From: Prevotella sp.
GTDB taxonomy: Bacteria > Bacteroidota > Bacteroidia > Bacteroidales > Bacteroidaceae
Direction: 5' to 3'
Length of the DNA stretch: 64,000 bases
NCBI GenBank assembly: GCA_016286995.1
Contig: JAEEVA010000014.1
Coordinates: forward strand, 1 to 64,000
This document shows, piece by piece, positions 4,621-15,144 of the stretch. The translations under genes were made by a program, and so were the position numbers. The notes beneath the pieces were generated by a model. It was not told where the DNA came from. It did not search any database and saw only the letters and a list, made by a program, of their open reading frames with translations. How positions within the stretch are numbered: position 1 is the stretch's first letter; every line of letters starts with the position of its first letter.

Positions 4621-4744
4621 GAGGCTTAACTTCTTTAACTACTGACTACTTAACTACTTCAGAAAGTTGAATCACGGTATGAGGGGAAGGTTCATGCCCT
4701 TAGTAATAAAAGTGTACAATCGTGATGGAATGTTGGCAAATGTT

Positions 4745-4817
4745 AAAAGTGTTTATAGGCAATAAACACAATATTCATAAGCAGTAAACACAGTGTTTAT
4801 TGCCTATAAACACTTTT
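4745..4817. repeat. Three-unit 22-bp-period array forming a perfect 25-bp inverted repeat
   Basis: Units at 4749, 4771, 4793; arms AAAAGTGTTTATAGGCAATAAACAC and GTGTTTATTGCCTATAAACACTTTT. Confidence 0.85.
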
Positions 4818-5055
4818 AGAAACGGCAGCTATAATTTTGCTGTCTGGTAAAAAGTTCGTATCATGACATCATCTGAGCATGCTGTTTTAGATGCTGTTAT
4901 TGCATATTTTGCACCTTCAGCGAAACTTAGGCCAAATAATTAGTATCATCATCAAGACTGGTGAAATCGCCATCTGAATTCGGAGGCACGGGAGCAATCC
5001 TGTGCCTTTTTAATAGAAAAATACGAAATCGTTTTGTCGTTAAAGAAATAATTAT

Positions 5056-5063
5056 TATCTTTG
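5056..5063 (+). promoter_or_regulatory. Bacteroidetes-type promoter TATCTTTG
   Basis: TAnnTTTG about 350 bp upstream of the helicase ATG; surrounding about 72 bp resembles 26162-26233. Confidence 0.6.
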
Positions 5064-5082
5064 CAATCAAGTATCGGCAAAT

Positions 5083-5404
5083 CGTCGTAAACGACGCATG
5101 CTGCAAAGCATCAATCTCTGAGTGCAGAGTGCTGGTATGATTTTCGTTGGTAAACAATAGCATCAGCTATTTGTTCAGAGACTCGTGGAACCTCGGAAAT
5201 TTCATGAAGTAGTGCTCGAACAAGTCAGCCGATGCCCGTGCGATAGCGCGGGCATGACTTGTATCTTAGCACTACAGGTACATCCGAGGACCTCACGAGA
5301 CAAGAGAAAAGTTATGAACGCGCTTCTTTTGTGTCCTGAGGTCTCATTCGAATTACCTGTAAGCAAGCCTGAAGATATAGTTTTGGTGCTTGACTAAAAC
5401 TATA
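5083..5404 (+). ncRNA. Candidate structured leader / ncRNA upstream of the defense locus
   Basis: Successive inverted repeats: CGTCG/CGACG (5083-5096), ATGCT-GCAA-AGCAT (5098-5111), CTCTG/CAGAG (5116-5129), AACAATAG/CTATTTGTT (5153-5175), nested stems 5182-5299, TATAGTTTT/AAAACTATA (5376-5404). Confidence 0.55.
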
Positions 5405-5411
5405 GTAGTGC

Positions 5412-8400
5412 ATGGAACTACCTAAACAATTCGATAACATCACCTCTCATGTCATCGACGATTTGAAGGTGACGCTGTGCCAAGGCTCCAAAGTGGCAAT
5501 GGCTGCAGCGAGTTTCTCCATCTATGCCTTTGAGGCCCTGCAAAAAGAGTTGGAGAAGGTGGACGAACTTCGCTTTATCTTTACCTCGCCAACGTTCAAC
5601 AAGGATCAAACAAAGAAACAGAAGCGGGAGTTCTATATCCCCAAACTGAATCGCGAGCGTACGCTGTATGGTTCTGACTTTGAGATCAAACTTCGTAATA
5701 ACCTTACTCAGCGGGCCATCGCTAAGGAATGTGCCGACTGGATTCGCCAAAAAGTACGTTTCAAGACCAACGTGTCACAGCAGAATATGGCTGGTTTCTT
5801 GAATGTAAAGCAGGATGAGGAGCAATACACCTACATTCCCTTTAATGAGTTTACCACTACGGAATTAGGTTGTGAGCGAGGCAATAATATCTTCCAACTT
5901 GTTCAGAGGCTGCCTTCGCCAATGTCTGACTCCTACCTTAAGTACTTCAATGACTTTTGGGAGGATAGCGAGAACTTCACGGATGTCACCAATGCCATCA
6001 TCGAGAATATCGAAAATGTCTATCGCGAGAATTCGCCAGACTTCATCTACTTCGTCACGCTCTACAATATCTTCAACGAATTCTTGGAAGATATCAGCGA
6101 GGATGTGCTGCCCAATGAGGCCACAGGTTTTAAGAGTTCTCAGATATGGAATAAGCTCTATAACTTCCAAAAGGATGCGGCTCTGGCCATTATCAATAAG
6201 TTGGAGACCTATAATGGCTGTATCTTGGCTGATTCAGTAGGTTTGGGTAAGACCTTTACGGCTATTTCTGTTATCAAGTATTACGAGAATCGCAATAAGA
6301 GTGTGCTGGTGCTTTGTCCCAAGAAACTCTATGAGAACTGGAATACCTATAAGGGCAACTACAAGAACAATCCATTAGAAAAAGACCGTCTGCGCTACGA
6401 TGTGCTGTTCCATACAGACCTTAGTCGTGAGCGTGGCTTGTCGAATGGCATAGATCTCTCGCGCCTGAATTGGGGCAACTACGACCTCATCGTGATTGAC
6501 GAGAGCCATAATTTCCGCAATGGTGGCAAGGTAACGACTGATGAGGACGATGAGAATCCACGTGAAAACCGCTATCTGCGCCTGATGAATCAGGTGATTC
6601 GTACTGGTGTGCGAACGAAGGTGCTGATGCTTTCTGCCACACCTGTCAACAACCGTTTCAACGACCTGAAAAACCAGTTGCAGTTGGCCTACGAGGGCAA
6701 TCAGAATCTGATTAACGACAAGCTGAATACTGATCGTCCTATCGAAGATATCTTCCGTTCTGCACAAGCACAATACAATGCATGGTCACGCATCGAAGAC
6801 CCCAAGGAGCGTACCACGGAGAAACTACTCGATATGCTCTCGTTCGACTTCTTCCAAGTGTTGGATGCTGTGACTATTGCTCGCAGTCGTAAACATATTG
6901 AGAAGTATTACGATACCACGGAGATTGGTAAATTCCCAACGCGTCTACGCCCTATCTCGAAGCGCCCCAAACTGACAGACCTCAATGATGCAATCACTTA
7001 CAAGGAAATAGCCAACCAGTTGGACGACCTGAACCTTGGTATCTATGCACCCTCTGACTATATCCTACCTTCTAAACGAGCCAAATATGAAATCGACACA
7101 GACGACAGAGGTGGACACCTTGGTATGTCTGGACGTGAGAAGGGACTGAAGAAACTGATGGCTATTAATTTGCTGAAGCGCCTAGAATCTTCAGTAAACA
7201 GTTTCCGTCTGACGCTGAGCCGTATGAAGGAAATGATTGACGAGACAATAGAGGCCATTGATACCTTTGTCAAAACCCGTCAGGATGTGCGCCTGGAGGT
7301 GCAACAGTTGGAAAACATGCTCGATGAAGATAGCGAGGATGATGTACTGATTGGTGGCAAGAAGTCTAAAGTATCATTGGCTGATATGGATTGTCGTTCG
7401 TGGAAGCGCGACCTGTTGAAAGATCAGGAGATATTGGGCTTGCTGCTGACTATGATTGAAGATATCAATCCAGAGCACGATAGCAAACTACAGATGCTTA
7501 TCGAGAACCTGCGCGAGAAATTTGCTCATCCAATTAATGGAAACAACAAAAAGGTGATAGTCTTTACAGCCTTCTCTGATACCGCAGAATATCTGTACGA
7601 CAACCTAGCTGCAATGATACTGGCGAAGACGGGGCTCCATGTAGGTTTAGTGACAGGTAATGGCATCCGTTCTACCGTTAAAGGATTGCCTGCTGACTTC
7701 AATAGCGTGCTGACACTCTTTTCGCCAATATCGAAAGAAAAAGACAAACTCTTTCCAAAACAATCAGAAGTCATCGATGTGCTAATAGCCACAGACTGTA
7801 TTTCTGAGGGTCAGAACCTACAGGATTGCGACTACCTGATAAATTACGATATCCATTGGAACCCTGTACGTATCATCCAGCGCTTTGGACGTGTGGATCG
7901 TATCGGTTCGAAGAATGATGTTATCCAATTGGTGAATTACTGGCCAGATATCGAGCTCGACGATTATCTCTATCTGAAAGGTCGTGTAGAGGCGCGTATG
8001 GCTGGTATGGATATAACTGCAGGTGGTGGAGGTAATGTGCTGCTCTCGAATGAAGAACAGACTGATCTTGAATATCGCAAGAGTCAGTTGATGCGTTTGC
8101 AGGAAGAAGTGGTTGACCTCGAAGATATGGACACGGGCATCAACATCATGGACTTGGGACTAAATGAGTTCCGCCTCGACCTGTTGGCCTATCTGCCAGA
8201 GCATCCTGACATCGAGCATACACCCTTTGGCATGAGTGCTGTCGTGCCTGCATCAGCCACAGCAAAGCCTGGTGTCATCTTCATTCTGAAGAACAGAAAC
8301 AATGCAGTCAATATCGGTCATCAGAATCTGCTGCATCCTTTCTATATGGTGTATCTCTCTGACGAGGGCGAAACCATCATCAACCACTTGGCTCCCAAGC

Positions 8401-8669
8401 GACTGCTGGACATCATGCGCTTAGCCTGCAAGGGAAAGCATGAGCCGATGATGGAACTCTGCCATCAGTTTAATCAGGAAACGGACAATGGCAGACGAAT
8501 GACACACTATAGCGACCTGCTGCAAAAGGCTGTCGCAACGATTGTAGCGCAGAAGGAAGAGAGCGACCTTGAAAGCCTCTTCTCCTTTGGCGAGACCACA
8601 GCCCTGCACGGTGATATCAAGGGCCTCGATGATTTTGAACTGATTTGTTTCTTAGTAATCAAGAATTAG
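5412..8669 (+). CDS. SNF2/superfamily 2 helicase, defense-associated type
   Basis: GCILADSVGLGKTFTA (Walker A), DLIVIDESHNFRN (DExH), MLSATPVNN, C-terminal helicase IIQRFGRVDRIGS. Confidence 0.85.
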   Translation: MELPKQFDNITSHVIDDLKVTLCQGSKVAMAAASFSIYAFEALQKELEKVDELRFIFTSPTFNKDQTKKQKREFYIPKLNRERTLYGSDFEIKLRNNLTQRAIAKECADWIRQKVRFKTNVSQQNMAGFLNVKQDEEQYTYIPFNEFTTTELGCERGNNIFQLVQRLPSPMSDSYLKYFNDFWEDSENFTDVTNAIIENIENVYRENSPDFIYFVTLYNIFNEFLEDISEDVLPNEATGFKSSQIWNKLYNFQKDAALAIINKLETYNGCILADSVGLGKTFTAISVIKYYENRNKSVLVLCPKKLYENWNTYKGNYKNNPLEKDRLRYDVLFHTDLSRERGLSNGIDLSRLNWGNYDLIVIDESHNFRNGGKVTTDEDDENPRENRYLRLMNQVIRTGVRTKVLMLSATPVNNRFNDLKNQLQLAYEGNQNLINDKLNTDRPIEDIFRSAQAQYNAWSRIEDPKERTTEKLLDMLSFDFFQVLDAVTIARSRKHIEKYYDTTEIGKFPTRLRPISKRPKLTDLNDAITYKEIANQLDDLNLGIYAPSDYILPSKRAKYEIDTDDRGGHLGMSGREKGLKKLMAINLLKRLESSVNSFRLTLSRMKEMIDETIEAIDTFVKTRQDVRLEVQQLENMLDEDSEDDVLIGGKKSKVSLADMDCRSWKRDLLKDQEILGLLLTMIEDINPEHDSKLQMLIENLREKFAHPINGNNKKVIVFTAFSDTAEYLYDNLAAMILAKTGLHVGLVTGNGIRSTVKGLPADFNSVLTLFSPISKEKDKLFPKQSEVIDVLIATDCISEGQNLQDCDYLINYDIHWNPVRIIQRFGRVDRIGSKNDVIQLVNYWPDIELDDYLYLKGRVEARMAGMDITAGGGGNVLLSNEEQTDLEYRKSQLMRLQEEVVDLEDMDTGINIMDLGLNEFRLDLLAYLPEHPDIEHTPFGMSAVVPASATAKPGVIFILKNRNNAVNIGHQNLLHPFYMVYLSDEGETIINHLAPKRLLDIMRLACKGKHEPMMELCHQFNQETDNGRRMTHYSDLLQKAVATIVAQKEESDLESLFSFGETTALHGDIKGLDDFELICFLVIKN

Positions 8670-8681
8670 AGAATTGGAGAA

Positions 8682-9371
8682 TTGAAAGAGTCAGACAACA
8701 TATTAGGCTATCCGCAAGGTACCATTGTCGATAAGGTGGTACCTAAGACGATGTTCTACAAGTTCATGGAAGTGAACCAACGGATGAAGGTGCGTTTTGT
8801 GAATGACGTGGCGCAGATCTGCTGGCTTTATAAACTCTCTGCCAATACCATCAACGTAACAGCGAGTGAAGAGCTGATAGAAATCGATGTGTTTGTGGTG
8901 ACGCTGAAAGAGCAGGATTGTCCTACGGATGTCTTTACGTTTATCGACATCAACATGCCGCATCATATTGTCTTCATCCTAAAATACGAAGAGCAGTATA
9001 TGCTGCTGATCAACTATAAAGAATGGAAGGACAATACCCACACGCAATTCAAGATAACCAAGTCATTTGCGACTACATGGATGCCCCAAGCGCAATTGTC
9101 ATTGGCTATTCAGGGCCAGTCGCTCCCACGTATCTACGACAACTTTGTGGCGCAGGTCTCAGGCATTGGTGAGCATAAGGCTGGAGCACTCGCAGAGATT
9201 GTTGGATTGAAAAAACGGATTGCCACGATGGAGGTAGAACTGCAATCCTTAGAAAAGCGTATGCGCAAGGAACCGCAATACGATGTGCAGGTCAGGATGA
9301 ATAAACAGGTAAAGGCCAAACGACAGGAGTTGGCTGGGCTAAAACAAAAAATGGAGGAACTGAGCGTATGA
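8682..9371 (+). CDS. DUF4391-like protein
   Basis: 229 aa directly downstream of the helicase; GTIVDKVVPKTMFYKF...WLYKLSANTINV...YKEWKD resembles DUF4391 as recalled. First codon unclear: the ORF start shown may be non-ATG. Confidence 0.55.
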   Translation: MKESDNILGYPQGTIVDKVVPKTMFYKFMEVNQRMKVRFVNDVAQICWLYKLSANTINVTASEELIEIDVFVVTLKEQDCPTDVFTFIDINMPHHIVFILKYEEQYMLLINYKEWKDNTHTQFKITKSFATTWMPQAQLSLAIQGQSLPRIYDNFVAQVSGIGEHKAGALAEIVGLKKRIATMEVELQSLEKRMRKEPQYDVQVRMNKQVKAKRQELAGLKQKMEELSV

Positions 9372-9388
9372 AATACTTGCAATTCTCA

Positions 9389-9721
9389 TTATTTAAGACT
9401 ACGAATAATTTGGTCTATATATTTCTCAGAAACATTCTTTATTTCCTTTTTGTCGTAAATGGTAAGCAGGTTAATACACGTATCTGTCGTCTCTACGACC
9501 ACATTGAGAGTGATGATTCTCAATCCGCCACGTTTACCCCCACCTTTGCTTTTTACTCCAAGACGGATTTTGCGTTTGCCGCCTCCCAAAGAAACTCCTG
9601 CCTCTGGGTTCTCCATCAATTCATATTGCAAATCATTAATATCATCGGCAAGAGAACGGTAACGCTTGGCCAAACGCTTTGCTTGGCGCAGAAATTCTTC
9701 AGTATAGTTGAAGGTTACCAT
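9389..9721 (-). CDS. RelE/ParE-superfamily toxin
   Basis: 110 aa: FNYTEEFLRQAKRLAKRYRSLADDINDLQYELMENP...GGKRKIRLGVKSKGGGKRGGLRIITLNVV...LLTIYDKKE. Confidence 0.75.
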   Translation of the reverse strand: MVTFNYTEEFLRQAKRLAKRYRSLADDINDLQYELMENPEAGVSLGGGKRKIRLGVKSKGGGKRGGLRIITLNVVVETTDTCINLLTIYDKKEIKNVSEKYIDQIIRSLK

Positions 9722-9727
9722 AGACTG

Positions 9728-9973
9728 CTATGCTTCGGCTCTAAGTTCCTCAACCAATGCGTCGAGAGATTTCAGATTCTTACCTGCAAATCGTCCTTCT
9801 TGGGCTTCATTGAAGCCTTTTGTAATAGTTTCCGTTATAAAGGCTTTCTCTGCTTCAGCATCAGTAGAGGATGTAACCATTCTGTCAATAGTTACACCTT
9901 TTATTGCCTCAAGAATTTTTTTCAAACTTGGGAGAAGACTTACGTCCTCAATATTCAATACAATCTGCGTCAT
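9728..9973 (-). CDS. Cognate antitoxin (hypothetical)
   Basis: Internal ATG MTQIVLNIEDVSLLPSLKKILEAIKGV...; directly precedes the toxin; promoter CAAAGATA (TATCTTTG on minus) at 9999-10006. Confidence 0.65.
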   Translation of the reverse strand: MTQIVLNIEDVSLLPSLKKILEAIKGVTIDRMVTSSTDAEAEKAFITETITKGFNEAQEGRFAGKNLKSLDALVEELRAEA

Positions 9974-10119
9974 ATTACTTCTGCTTATAATTCCGCTGCA
10001 AAGATACGAATAAGCGAGCAAAATTCCAAATTTATTTGAGTATTTTCGAGCGAGAGTATCTTCAATGTAGTCAAATATACGATAAATAAACGAAACAAAC
10101 AAATAAAAATAATAAAATC

Positions 10120-12090
10120 ATGCAAATAGAACATTTAAACAAAGAAACCACAGACGGAACAATGCGCAATCTCGATGCACTCTACCAGTTGTTCCCATCG
10201 TGCTTTACGGAGACGCAGGATGTCATAACTGGCAAGATGCATCGTGCAGTAGATTGGGGCAAGTTGCGTTCACTCCTTGGGGAGTATGTGGAAAGCGACG
10301 AGCCTGAGAAGTACGACTTTACGTGGGTTGGCAAACGGGCTGCTCAGCGTGAGGCTGCAGCACCCTGTCGTAAGACGTTGCGGCCTTGCCCGGAAGAGAG
10401 TGTGGATTGGGACACCACCCAGAACCTCTATATCGAAGGCGACAACCTCGAAGTGCTGAAACTGCTCCAAAACTCATATATGGGCAAGGTCAAGATGATC
10501 TATATCGACCCACCATATAATACAGGTAGCGATTTGATTTATAACGATACCCGTATACTATCAGAAGAAAAATATAATGCATCTATATCTGATGAAGAAG
10601 GTAATAGATTATTTAAGAATACTTATTCAAATGGAAGTTTCCATTCTGATTGGTGTTCTATGATATATGAGAGACTGGTTGTTTCACGCACACTTCTTTC
10701 TGATGATGGTGTTATTTTTATTTCAATAGACGATAATGAACTGAAGAATTTAAGAAATATTTGTGATGAAGTTCTTGGTGAGCAAAACTTTATTTCTGTG
10801 ATTCCGAGAATTGCCAAAAAGGGGTCTGACCAAGGAACACATTTCAGACCAACCAAAGATTATATATTGTGTTATGCTAGAAATTTTGGTAGTTTAAATG
10901 GTTTTGTTGATAAGAATGTTGGAGTAGAGAAGAAGAACTATCCTCTATCTGAAAATGGGAGAAAGTACAGAAAGGCTCATTCTTTATTTCAAGCATCATT
11001 AGATCCCTTACGAGGTTGTGTTAATCAGAGATATTACATAGAGGCACCTGATGGCACATTAATAATCCCTCCTGGGGATAATTTCCCTTCAGAGTCTGTT
11101 GATGGAGGTCAAATTGCGCCACAAACTAAAAATGATAAAGTCTGGAGATGGAGTAAAGACTCTTATATGGCAAAAAAATCAATATTAATGTTTGATAAAT
11201 CTCAACGATCTCCACTTGTTGATTCATATGGTAATCATACTGATTGGAATGTTTATGAAAAGAAATATGAAGATGAAGAAACAAAAGATGAAAAATATCC
11301 TCTTCCTAATGATGTGATTTATGATTATATCAATACGCTTGGTACAACTACATTACATGAATTAGGACTAGAGTTCTCGTTCAGTAAACCATACCAGCTT
11401 ATTAAGTATCTAATCGAGATAATAAACAAGGAAGACGATATAATTGTGTTGGATTTCTTCTCTGGTTCTGCGACTACAGCTCAAGCTGTTATGGATATGA
11501 ACGCAGAAGATAATGGAAAACGAAAATTTATAATGGTTCAAGTTAAAGAGAACTTGCCAGAAGGAACTCCAGATTTTACAACGATACCAGAAATTGCCAA
11601 AGAACGTATTCGTCGTGCTGGAAAGAAGATTAAGGCAGACAGTCCGCTGACGACACAAGACCTTGATATTGGTTTCCGTGTACTGAAGTGCGATGAGTCA
11701 AACTATAAGCCTGTAGCTTTTGCTCCCAAGGACTATACGCAGGAGTCACTCGATATGTTCTTGGATAATATCAAGGAAGAGCGCACAGGTCTCGACCTGC
11801 TCTTCGACTGCATGATGCGTTGGGGTTTGGAACTCTCATTGCCATACGACACACAAAAGGTGGACGGTTGTACCATCTATGATGTGGATGAAGGTAGCCT
11901 TGTGGCCTGTTTCGATGGTGTGGTGACTGGCGCTGTGATTGATGCCATTGCAGAGACTCATCCCCTCCGCGTGGTATTCCGCGATAGTTCGTTCACAGAA
12001 GCCGCCCAGAAGATGAACCTCTTCGAACTGTTCAAACAGAAGTGCGGCTGGACTGACCAGGAAGTGCAGAATAACGTCAGAGTGATTTAG
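10120..12090 (+). CDS. mod: Type III-like site-specific DNA (adenine) methyltransferase, Mod
   Basis: MIYIDPPYNTGSDLIYND (DPPY motif), DFFSGSATTAQAVM; upstream of Res. Confidence 0.9.
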   Translation: MQIEHLNKETTDGTMRNLDALYQLFPSCFTETQDVITGKMHRAVDWGKLRSLLGEYVESDEPEKYDFTWVGKRAAQREAAAPCRKTLRPCPEESVDWDTTQNLYIEGDNLEVLKLLQNSYMGKVKMIYIDPPYNTGSDLIYNDTRILSEEKYNASISDEEGNRLFKNTYSNGSFHSDWCSMIYERLVVSRTLLSDDGVIFISIDDNELKNLRNICDEVLGEQNFISVIPRIAKKGSDQGTHFRPTKDYILCYARNFGSLNGFVDKNVGVEKKNYPLSENGRKYRKAHSLFQASLDPLRGCVNQRYYIEAPDGTLIIPPGDNFPSESVDGGQIAPQTKNDKVWRWSKDSYMAKKSILMFDKSQRSPLVDSYGNHTDWNVYEKKYEDEETKDEKYPLPNDVIYDYINTLGTTTLHELGLEFSFSKPYQLIKYLIEIINKEDDIIVLDFFSGSATTAQAVMDMNAEDNGKRKFIMVQVKENLPEGTPDFTTIPEIAKERIRRAGKKIKADSPLTTQDLDIGFRVLKCDESNYKPVAFAPKDYTQESLDMFLDNIKEERTGLDLLFDCMMRWGLELSLPYDTQKVDGCTIYDVDEGSLVACFDGVVTGAVIDAIAETHPLRVVFRDSSFTEAAQKMNLFELFKQKCGWTDQEVQNNVRVI

Positions 12091-12093
12091 CCT

Positions 12094-15000
12094 ATGAAAC
12101 TGAAATTTAAAAACCAACAATTCCAGACGGATGCAGCGAAGGCTGTGACGGATGTGTTCCAGGGACAAAGGAATGGCTCCTTGCTGGAGTTTACCCACGA
12201 CTTGGGAACAGATAACGGTGGTTTCTTCGATGCCGTGGGCTATAAGAACCAGCCTATCGAGGTGCCGTATAGCCAGGTTCTGGATAATATTCGCAACCTG
12301 CAGATGGCGGCTCAATTGAAACCCACGGAGAGTTTCGACAGGGCAGACCTGCGGCTGACCATCGAGATGGAAACGGGTACAGGAAAGACCTACACCTATA
12401 TCAAGACGATGTTCGAACTGAACAAGCTCTATGGCTGGAGCAAGTTCATCATCGTGGTGCCCAGCATCGCCATCCGCGAGGGCGTGTGCAAATCATTCGA
12501 GGTGATGAGCGAGCACTTTGCCGCAGAATACGGCAAGAGGATTCAGAGTTTCGTATATGATAGTGGCCAGCTGACGAAGATTGACCAGTTTGCCAGCGAT
12601 AGCAACATGCACGTGATGATTATCAACACACAGGCTTTTGCTGCACGAGGTGAGGATGCACGACGTATCTATATGAAGCTGGACGCCTTCCGTTCACGCA
12701 GACCTATCGACGTGATTGCTGCCACGAACCCGATCCTGATTATCGACGAGCCGCAGAGCGTGTTGGGTGCTGATAAGAAGAATGCCACCAGAAATCGATT
12801 GAAGGAGTTTAATCCGCTCTTTACCTTATTATATAGTGCCACCCATAGGGCTGATGACATCGTGAACATGATCTATAGACTAGACGCGATGGATGCCTAT
12901 AACAAGAAACTGGTGAAAAAGATCTCTGTGGTGGGCATTGAGCAAAAAGGCTCTACTGCTACAAATGGCTATCTCTATTTGGAGAGCATCGAACTCTCAG
13001 AGGGTAATCCTCGTGCAAGAATTGGCTTTGACAAACGGGTCGGGAATGGTGTGAAGCAGGTGACGCAACTGGTGAGTGACCGCTTTGATATCTACCAGAA
13101 CTCAGGCGAGTTGCAGGAGTATGCTGATAACTATCGCGTGACAGAGATTGACGGCTATAACCGCTGCATCCATCTGCAAAACGGCCTCACCCTCTATGAA
13201 GGTGAGGTGATTGGCGCTGTGAACGAACAGGTAATCCGTAAGGCACAAATACGTGCCACCATCTTGGCACATATCGAGAAAGAACGTAAGTTGTTCCGTC
13301 AGGGTATTAAGTGCCTGTCGCTGTTCTTTATCGACCATGTGGATAATTATCGTGAAAGCCTCACCCCCGCCCCCTTTCCAAAGGGCGAGGGGAGTAGTCA
13401 GAAAGGCATCTATGCACAGATATTCGAAGAGGAATATGAACGGATTGTGGGAGAGCTGCAACTGAGGTTTAGCGATGACCCTGAATATGTGAAGTATCTG
13501 AAGAGCTTTTCGCCAGATCAGGTTCATGATGGTTACTTCTCGCGCGACAAGAAGAATAATGTGGTGGAGTCGAAGGCGAAAGAGTCGGAAAACGAACTGC
13601 GAGGCTATCAGTTGATTATGAAGGCCAAGGAGGCACTGTTGTCGTTTAAGACGCCCGTACGTTTCATCTTCTCCCACTCAGCCCTGAAAGAAGGTTGGGA
13701 CAATCCGAATGTGTTCCAGATCTGTACGCTGAAGGATTCGGATAACCAGACGAAGAAGCGTCAGGAGGTGGGTCGTGGTATGCGCCTGTGCGTGAACCAA
13801 CAGGGCGAGCGACAGGACGAGAGCGTGCTGCATGGTGGCGTGTTCGAAGTGAATGAACTGACTGTTATTGCCAGCGAGTCGTACAACTCGTTTGCATCGA
13901 AACTACAGACGGAGATTGCAGAGGCTGTGGGCGACCGTCCACAGAAGGTGAACATGCAACTGTTCCTCGACTTTGTGGTCACCAATGCCCATGGCGAACA
14001 AAAGAAACTATCAGAGGACGATGCGCAGGAACTGACCTTCACTCTTCGCATGAAGGGCTATATCACCAAAGACGGGCAACTGACACCCAAGTATCATCAA
14101 GACAAGCAAGAGGGGACACTCGACTTTGGAGAATATGATGAGTATAAGAAAGATGTGGAAAGGAAGCTCGAAACTGTCTTCAATCCTGATGCTGTCAAGC
14201 CAGAGAATGGCAGGAAGGTGCGCGAGGCGAAGTTTGACTCGCAGAAGTTTGAGCGCAAGGAATTCCAGGAACTATGGCGCAGGATAAACCATCAGACATA
14301 TTATACTGTTGATTTCAAGACTGACGAACTAATCAACAAAGCAGTCATTCAGTTGGATAACCACCTGAAGGTATCAGATATCCAACTCCGTATGGTGACT
14401 GGTACGCTGGACCGCATTGGCAGCAAACAGCAACTGGAGCAAGGCACGGCCATGAGTATTACTGACTCTCAGACGCTTTCTGTGCATGAAGATATCGGAG
14501 AGGAGGTTCGCTACGACCTAATCGGTAAACTGGTAGAGAATACAGGGCTAACGCGAAAGGCTGTTGTGACTATCTTGAAGAAGATAAAGCCATCGACTTT
14601 CAATCAGTTTAAGACGAACCCAGAAGAGTTTATCATCAAGGCCTCGAATATTATCAATGAGTGTAAGGCCATTGCTGTGATTGAGCATGTGAAGTATCAC
14701 AAACTGGATAAGCAGTTTGAGAGCGACATCTTCAGCAATACAACGCTGAAGGGCAAGTTGGGCGTGAACGCGTTAGAGTCGCAGAAGTCACTATACGATT
14801 TGGTGGTGGTAGATTCCGCTGGTATCGAGATGAACTTTGCGAAGGACCTGGAAGAGCGCAACGAGGTGGCTGTCTATACAAAGTTGCCTGGCGGCTTCTA
14901 TATCAATACGCCTGTAGGCCATTATAATCCAGACTGGGCGATAGTGTTTAAGGAGGGGCCAGACATCAAGCATGTCTATTTCGTAGCAGAAACTAAGGGT

Positions 15001-15144
15001 TCTTTGGAAGAATCGCAACTGCGTGAATCAGAACGTTCAAAGATAGAATGTGCCCGTCGCCATTTCGCTACCATAGGCGATTCTGCAGTAACCTACGATG
15101 TAGTTCGTAATTACAACGATCTGCGAGATATCATTACGAAGTAG
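12094..15144 (+). CDS. res: Type III restriction enzyme Res subunit (helicase + nuclease)
   Basis: METGTGKTYTYIKTMFEL (Walker A), ILIIDEPQSV (DEPQ), QEVGRGMRL; C-terminal NPDWAIVF...YFVAETKG, PD-ExK-like. Confidence 0.9.
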   Translation: MKLKFKNQQFQTDAAKAVTDVFQGQRNGSLLEFTHDLGTDNGGFFDAVGYKNQPIEVPYSQVLDNIRNLQMAAQLKPTESFDRADLRLTIEMETGTGKTYTYIKTMFELNKLYGWSKFIIVVPSIAIREGVCKSFEVMSEHFAAEYGKRIQSFVYDSGQLTKIDQFASDSNMHVMIINTQAFAARGEDARRIYMKLDAFRSRRPIDVIAATNPILIIDEPQSVLGADKKNATRNRLKEFNPLFTLLYSATHRADDIVNMIYRLDAMDAYNKKLVKKISVVGIEQKGSTATNGYLYLESIELSEGNPRARIGFDKRVGNGVKQVTQLVSDRFDIYQNSGELQEYADNYRVTEIDGYNRCIHLQNGLTLYEGEVIGAVNEQVIRKAQIRATILAHIEKERKLFRQGIKCLSLFFIDHVDNYRESLTPAPFPKGEGSSQKGIYAQIFEEEYERIVGELQLRFSDDPEYVKYLKSFSPDQVHDGYFSRDKKNNVVESKAKESENELRGYQLIMKAKEALLSFKTPVRFIFSHSALKEGWDNPNVFQICTLKDSDNQTKKRQEVGRGMRLCVNQQGERQDESVLHGGVFEVNELTVIASESYNSFASKLQTEIAEAVGDRPQKVNMQLFLDFVVTNAHGEQKKLSEDDAQELTFTLRMKGYITKDGQLTPKYHQDKQEGTLDFGEYDEYKKDVERKLETVFNPDAVKPENGRKVREAKFDSQKFERKEFQELWRRINHQTYYTVDFKTDELINKAVIQLDNHLKVSDIQLRMVTGTLDRIGSKQQLEQGTAMSITDSQTLSVHEDIGEEVRYDLIGKLVENTGLTRKAVVTILKKIKPSTFNQFKTNPEEFIIKASNIINECKAIAVIEHVKYHKLDKQFESDIFSNTTLKGKLGVNALESQKSLYDLVVVDSAGIEMNFAKDLEERNEVAVYTKLPGGFYINTPVGHYNPDWAIVFKEGPDIKHVYFVAETKGSLEESQLRESERSKIECARRHFATIGDSAVTYDVVRNYNDLRDIITK
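13358..13396. repeat. Palindromic GC-rich insertion inside res, translated SLTPAPFPKGEGSS
   Basis: GCCTCACCCCCGCCCCCTTTCCAAAGGGCGAGGGGAGTA; in frame; CCCTTT-CC-AAAGGG core. Confidence 0.6.

Follow-up and report, generated by a model that had tools for sequence, protein, structure and literature searches.

In the window (the whole 64,000-nucleotide stretch of Prevotella DNA analysed here), an untranslated interval of 348 nt (5064–5411) separates a promoter box from the first gene of a restriction–modification (R-M) operon. The promoter box TATCTTTG and the helicase start codon, both named by a first-pass annotation, were confirmed at their positions in the sequence. The operon is ordered SNF2 helicase, DUF4391, type III Mod, and Res (Table 1). 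Between the DUF4391 and Mod genes, at 9389–10102 on the minus strand, lie genes for a small RelE-like protein of 110 aa and for a partner of 124 aa, for which no Pfam or PADLOC match was found at E 0.001. A strong inverted repeat, GTTTATAGGCAATAAACAC ... GTGTTTATTGCCTATAAACAC, occupies 4740–4820, 5′ of the promoter and 3′ of the preceding gene. A second TAnnTTTG is present inside the window leader at 5378; internal copies were found in only 10 of 99 leaders, and TAnnTTTG begins 4–14 nt 5′ of the RNA in 73 of 99 family members.

Table 1. Positions of the leader features and operon genes in the window. Percentages are cells paired; covariation values are means.
Feature	Position	Strand	Remarks
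Promoter −7 box TATCTTTG	5056–5063	+	Bacteroidetes TAnnTTTG type, read in sequence; predicted start
P1 5′ strand GUAUCGGC	5071–5078	+	pairs with 5131–5138; 96.1% (62 leaders)
P2 hairpin CGUCG-UAAA-CGACG	5083–5096	+	two-sided changes in 5/5 pairs; 95.1%
P3 hairpin	5098–5111	+	predicted fold; sequence and length differ among members
P4 hairpin CUCUG-AGUG-CAGAG	5116–5129	+	94.8%
P1 3′ strand	5131–5138	+	same support as P1 5′ strand
P5 hairpin	5156–5171	+	74.9% (62-leader alignment); in R2 matches across the order
State I long hairpin	5182–5299	+	covariation in 62-leader alignment
State I helix A:B	5182–5186/5295–5299	+	covariation 52.7; null maximum over all runs 22.1
State I helix i5:i3	5191–5197/5283–5289	+	covariation 54.0; null maximum over all runs 17.8
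State I inner stem	5209–5216/5268–5275	+	
State I apical hairpin K5:K3	5233–5241/5246–5254	+	covariation 13.8; null maximum 5.7
Strand E	5273–5278	+	competes between upstream inner stem and F
Strand B	5290–5298	+	competing partners: A in state I, C in state II
Strand X (CGCGCU) and U-tract (UUCUUUU)	5319–5330	+	candidate terminator-type partner of K3
Strand C	5334–5342	+	state II pairing with B; B:C 85.3%
Strand F	5356–5361	+	state II pairing with E; E:F 85.8%
SNF2-type helicase, first operon gene	5412–8669	+	Pfam SNF2-rel_dom, ResIII, Helicase_C; PADLOC C3a139 HKD+Snf2
DUF4391 gene	8682–9371	+	PF14335, E=1.3e-43
Type III Mod methyltransferase	10120–12090	+	PADLOC MTase_III, 617 bits
Type III Res endonuclease	12094–15144	+	PADLOC REase_III, 916 bits

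The minimum free energy predicted for the 348-nt leader was −130 kcal/mol, compared with −91.3 kcal/mol (SD 5.4) for dinucleotide shuffles (z = −7.2). All stems that the first-pass annotation had listed were recovered, among them P2, P3, P4, i5:i3, the inner stem, and the apical hairpin, together with the stems 5182–5187/5294–5299 and 5220–5227/5255–5262. The hairpin placed at 5153–5175 exists, but its true extent is that of P5. The stem 5376–5384/5396–5404 before the ATG also exists in the window but is not conserved across the family, and a conserved final hairpin at 5376–5404 was rejected as a family feature. Two elements had been overlooked: P1, a covarying stem that surrounds the first three hairpins, and the competing downstream pairings described below. 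The ORF at 5185–5397 had been dismissed as a by-product, and rightly so, as an ORF of at least 60 aa occurs there in only one of 62 leaders, that of the window. A leader-encoded peptide was rejected, the ORF not being conserved, as was a short upstream ORF from an AUG near 5137–5139, which several members lack; an H-type pseudoknot near the start codon was inconsistent among members.

Conservation of the fold was scored in an alignment (A2) of 62 non-redundant full leaders aligned by sequence, with P3 left out of the covariation scoring. In P1–P5 together with the long 3′ hairpin (state I), 88.9% of the cells were paired, compared with at most 47.2% in slid controls, and 40 of 53 pairs showed two-sided changes, the helices scored having been chosen with knowledge of the same alignment. 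Under a tree-aware null, in which the observed substitutions were re-dealt over the columns branch by branch (by our own script, which is R-scape-like but is not R-scape), 12 column pairs had E values up to 0.2, eight of them ≤0.05. All 12 lay in P1, A:B, i5:i3, the apical hairpin, and the pairing of strand E with the ACC after i3, and the P1 pair 5077–5132 was significant. The leader has a conserved secondary structure with compensatory changes; P1, P2, and the long 3′ hairpin covary strongly. Three leaders that are normal elsewhere (L028, L054, and L203) carry insertions of ∼40–60 nt, rich in GCTCGA-type repeats, in their P2 regions.

In a blastn search against 100 related genomes, the leader, in part or whole, was found ahead of differing genes and in several copies per genome. 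R1, a covariance model built for the 5′ domain (114 positions, from 18 sequences that showed covariation), matched 126 of 399 genomes of the genus with up to six copies each, whereas among 394 genomes drawn from the order it found the P1–P4 domain outside the genus in one genome only, ahead of an MmeI-like R-M gene. The family hosts are rumen and gut Prevotella-like bacteria, and the genomes analysed are mostly metagenome assemblies. In the window's genome, a second copy (L160) lies on C43 ahead of a two-gene R-M system. The next gene opened an R-M operon in 104 of the 110 loci with a first downstream gene, a count based on cluster membership in which one or two loci (such as the damaged L229) might be reclassified. 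Eight protein clusters accommodated 102 of the 110 first genes; by their representatives, these are SNF2/PLD helicases, a PADLOC mad2 match followed by a ResIII/Eco57I protein, MmeI/Eco57I type IIG, HsdM (type I), EcoRI-like methylase, type III Mod-like N6_N4 methylase, BPTD_3080 endonuclease, and D12 methylase. Two further R-M loci, L189 and L164, fell outside the clusters; in L164, the next long gene is Dcm. In the non-R-M exceptions (L155, L173, L198, L212, L219, and L220), the 3′ domains were mostly truncated or degenerate, and the R1 matches L220, L228, L230, and L240, in which a 3′ domain could not be recognised, were classed as degenerate or false.

The leader lies 5′ of genes of related function, on the same strand and at a fixed spacing: the start codon follows the 5′ domain at a median distance of 224 nt (interquartile range 216–231). 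Covariation and recurrence before unrelated R-M operons support the first-pass proposal of a structured regulatory RNA linked to defence genes. That proposal is too narrow, as the leader is not specific to SNF2–DUF4391 loci, being found also on type I, II, IIG, and III R-M operons of the genus. Conversely, only 8 of 30 HsdM loci tested in leader-bearing genomes carried the leader, indicating that R-M operons do not need it, and beyond the Prevotella lineage, homologues of the window's helicase lacked it. A dispersed, multi-copy, and patchy distribution with different genes behind similar leaders could also be produced by a DNA-level element, such as a recombination site, a mobile cassette, or a dispersed repeat. 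However, the helices are kept by compensatory changes as the sequence drifts, orientation and gene spacing are fixed, and G-U pairs are common, as for RNA, so that we consider such an element very improbable.

Several strands of the 3′ domain were found to have two partners. In state II (B:C and E:F), 85.5% of the cells were paired, compared with at most 51.4% in slid controls. The mean covariation of B:C (15.6) exceeded the maximum of all same-length runs in 40 null alignments (14.6), whereas that of E:F (16.7) was above the maximum of its same-column null (6.6) and below that of the search-wide null (19.8). For K3:X, the mean covariation was 13.5 (null maximum 5.1), on par with K5:K3. The covariation of state II is clearly weaker than that of state I; helix G:H is too conserved for covariation, and the C/F region is poorly aligned in some clusters (EcoRI-like and Mod). 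The number of central bases that could pair both ways averaged 26.7, compared with 9.3 in shuffles, and was above all eight shuffles in 74 of 99 leaders. In constrained folding, the predicted energies of states I and II were within 10 kcal/mol of each other in 48 of 62 leaders. Covariation and base sharing thus define mutually exclusive pairings, as in riboswitches and attenuators: A:B and B:C, K5:K3 and K3:X, and the upstream stem and E:F cannot coexist in one molecule because they share bases. From this arrangement we infer that molecules may switch between the folds. One natural leader (L065, 1868–2077) lacks the entire A-to-B hairpin and keeps P1, P5, and the post-B region, ahead of a helicase gene that looks intact.

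Taken together, the promoter, the conserved 5′ domain, the strands with two partners, the U-tract by one alternative, and the constant spacing make an attenuator or orphan-riboswitch-like leader for R-M operons the best reading of the sequence. A leader of ∼340 nt would be transcribed from the promoter into the R-M operon. Its 5′ domain, with P1 closing three hairpins and followed by P5, would be the likely sensor, and its 3′ domain would be the switch, in which a central strand could pair upstream or downstream. The long hairpin of state I would form first during transcription and would compete with downstream partners, K3:X right before the U-tract and B:C and E:F beyond it. Premature termination would be favoured by K3:X and the U-tract, whereas state I, by holding K3, would favour read-through and would be the putative ON state; state II would form on the transcripts that read through. 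We consider it probable, with modest confidence, that the leader acts in cis and governs read-through into R-M operons in this manner. Against termination, K3:X would close a loop of ∼65–70 nt and must displace a stable hairpin, and a terminator scan of the window was negative. In the window, K3:X comprises only ∼6 bp.

The same two-state cis leader could instead exert control at translation initiation or through mRNA stability, the U-tract then being just part of the structure. The ATG is no more than ∼50 nt from strand F and the end of the switch, the energies of states I and II are similar, and a terminator scan of the window leader on the plus strand found none, all of which would suit such control. 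However, the 30 nt before the ATG have no conserved structure, a U-tract after X is near universal (five or more T at X or beyond it in 60 of 62 leaders of the genus and 32 of 36 loci from the order), and K3:X covaries, so that termination fits better, and we regard control at translation or stability as rather unlikely. A U-tract that served as a 3′ end, the leader's own promoter, and its compact, pseudoknot-prone fold would suit a stand-alone or dual-use ncRNA of ∼260 nt, acting in trans or as an RNA part of the R-M system. Yet, with few exceptions, the element shares the strand of the gene and precedes it at a constant distance, and the strands past the U-tract (C and F) covary too. A common protein partner is also unlikely, because the leader is shared among unrelated enzymes, and we doubt that the ncRNA explanation is correct.

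The leader is an RNA family absent from Rfam 15. At gathering score, no family matched in the window or in 20 family loci, and permissive searches returned only chance-level matches at E up to 10 (window) or up to 1 (eight other loci). The Bacteroidetes motifs of Rfam (e.g., Bacteroidales-1 and Bacteroides-1) are likewise structured RNAs of these bacteria, but the leader matches none of them at gathering score. A divergent self-splicing or self-cleaving ribozyme might be suspected from pseudoknot-like pairings and from GAAGAUAUAGU near the 3′ end of the leader, which we take to resemble locally the S element of group I introns. However, neither the Intron_gpI nor the ribozyme models matched in the permissive searches (E up to 10 for the window and up to 1 for eight other loci), and the central bases have two partners, unlike those of a single catalytic fold, which leaves a ribozyme scarcely credible.

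P5 and the 3′ domain form a widely conserved core. A second covariance model (R2; P5 and state I, 150 positions) matched 149 of 200 genomes of the genus, 136 of 394 genomes across the order (84 of 206 genera), and 22 of 299 genomes in the phylum. Outside the genus, the core lies in some families ahead of N6_N4 and N6 methylases, HsdM, Dcm, and EcoRI-like genes and in others ahead of secreted or surface-protein genes. Because it also precedes surface-protein genes, the core is not an R-M-only device but a leader of Bacteroidia in general; the association with R-M genes is strongest in the full-length form found in the window's genus. The window's genome itself has weaker R2 matches (L323, L324, and L325, on C59, C9, and C44) ahead of surface- or secreted-protein genes. 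In L323 and L325, a GGGACUG strand past the U-tract region could pair with X. In six loci of other Bacteroidia (L334, L346, L350, L366, L367, and L371), the core precedes secreted-protein genes, and X and the downstream strand (CAGUUCC/GGGACUG) seem to change together (AGUUCC/GGAACU and AGACCC/GGGUUU). In genus g29 (L311, L312, and L316), core copies, several per genome, were observed near a 70-aa HTH-like ORF.

No leader match was found in the plasmid and phage nucleotide collections, nor was the 5′-domain pattern found in viral contigs. The core motif pattern occurred in 14 viral contigs, and the RNA was confirmed by the model in two. In one of these two, an IMG/VR contig classed as viral (L381), the core RNA lies ahead of an EcoRI-like methylase gene, which suggests transport of the leader and R-M system by a mobile element.

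One type of regulator fronting many defence systems has a precedent in the WYL-type BrxR and CapW, which are DNA-binding proteins, whereas the leader is an RNA. With SAM- and T-box-type riboswitches and attenuators, it shares the position as a 5′ leader, a conserved 5′ domain, exclusive pairings, and a U-tract beside a competing stem. It differs from them in that the alternative strands are themselves conserved over ∼230 nt, the targets are R-M operons of unrelated types, and the leader is an orphan with no assigned ligand. Control of R-M expression by C controller proteins and by the antisense RNAs of EcoRI and Eco29kI has been described (PMC3874152); there too, R-M genes are controlled partly by RNA, but each protein or antisense transcript is particular to one system. 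No riboswitch is mentioned in the text of that review, and no riboswitch, leader, or small RNA in a 2025 R-M review (PMC12707154). Such a leader was undescribed in the open-access literature searched, most subscription journals lying outside the scope of the search.

As to the signal that the putative sensor domain may respond to, the leaders could tentatively be viewed as a riboswitch-like class that responds to a shared intracellular signal of infection or methylation capacity (S-adenosylmethionine, nucleotides, and a stress signal being examples) and thereby coordinates the expression of a cell's R-M operons regardless of their type. Most of what is known about the regulation of R-M operons comes from controller proteins of individual systems. 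A shared leader with conserved competing folds before unrelated R-M operons would be an RNA-level control point of the immune repertoire in bacteria that abound in the gut and rumen, and the covariance models and defined strands provide a handle for finding its signal. The wider-spread core that lies ahead of surface-protein genes would represent a sizeable unannotated class of regulatory RNA in Bacteroidia.
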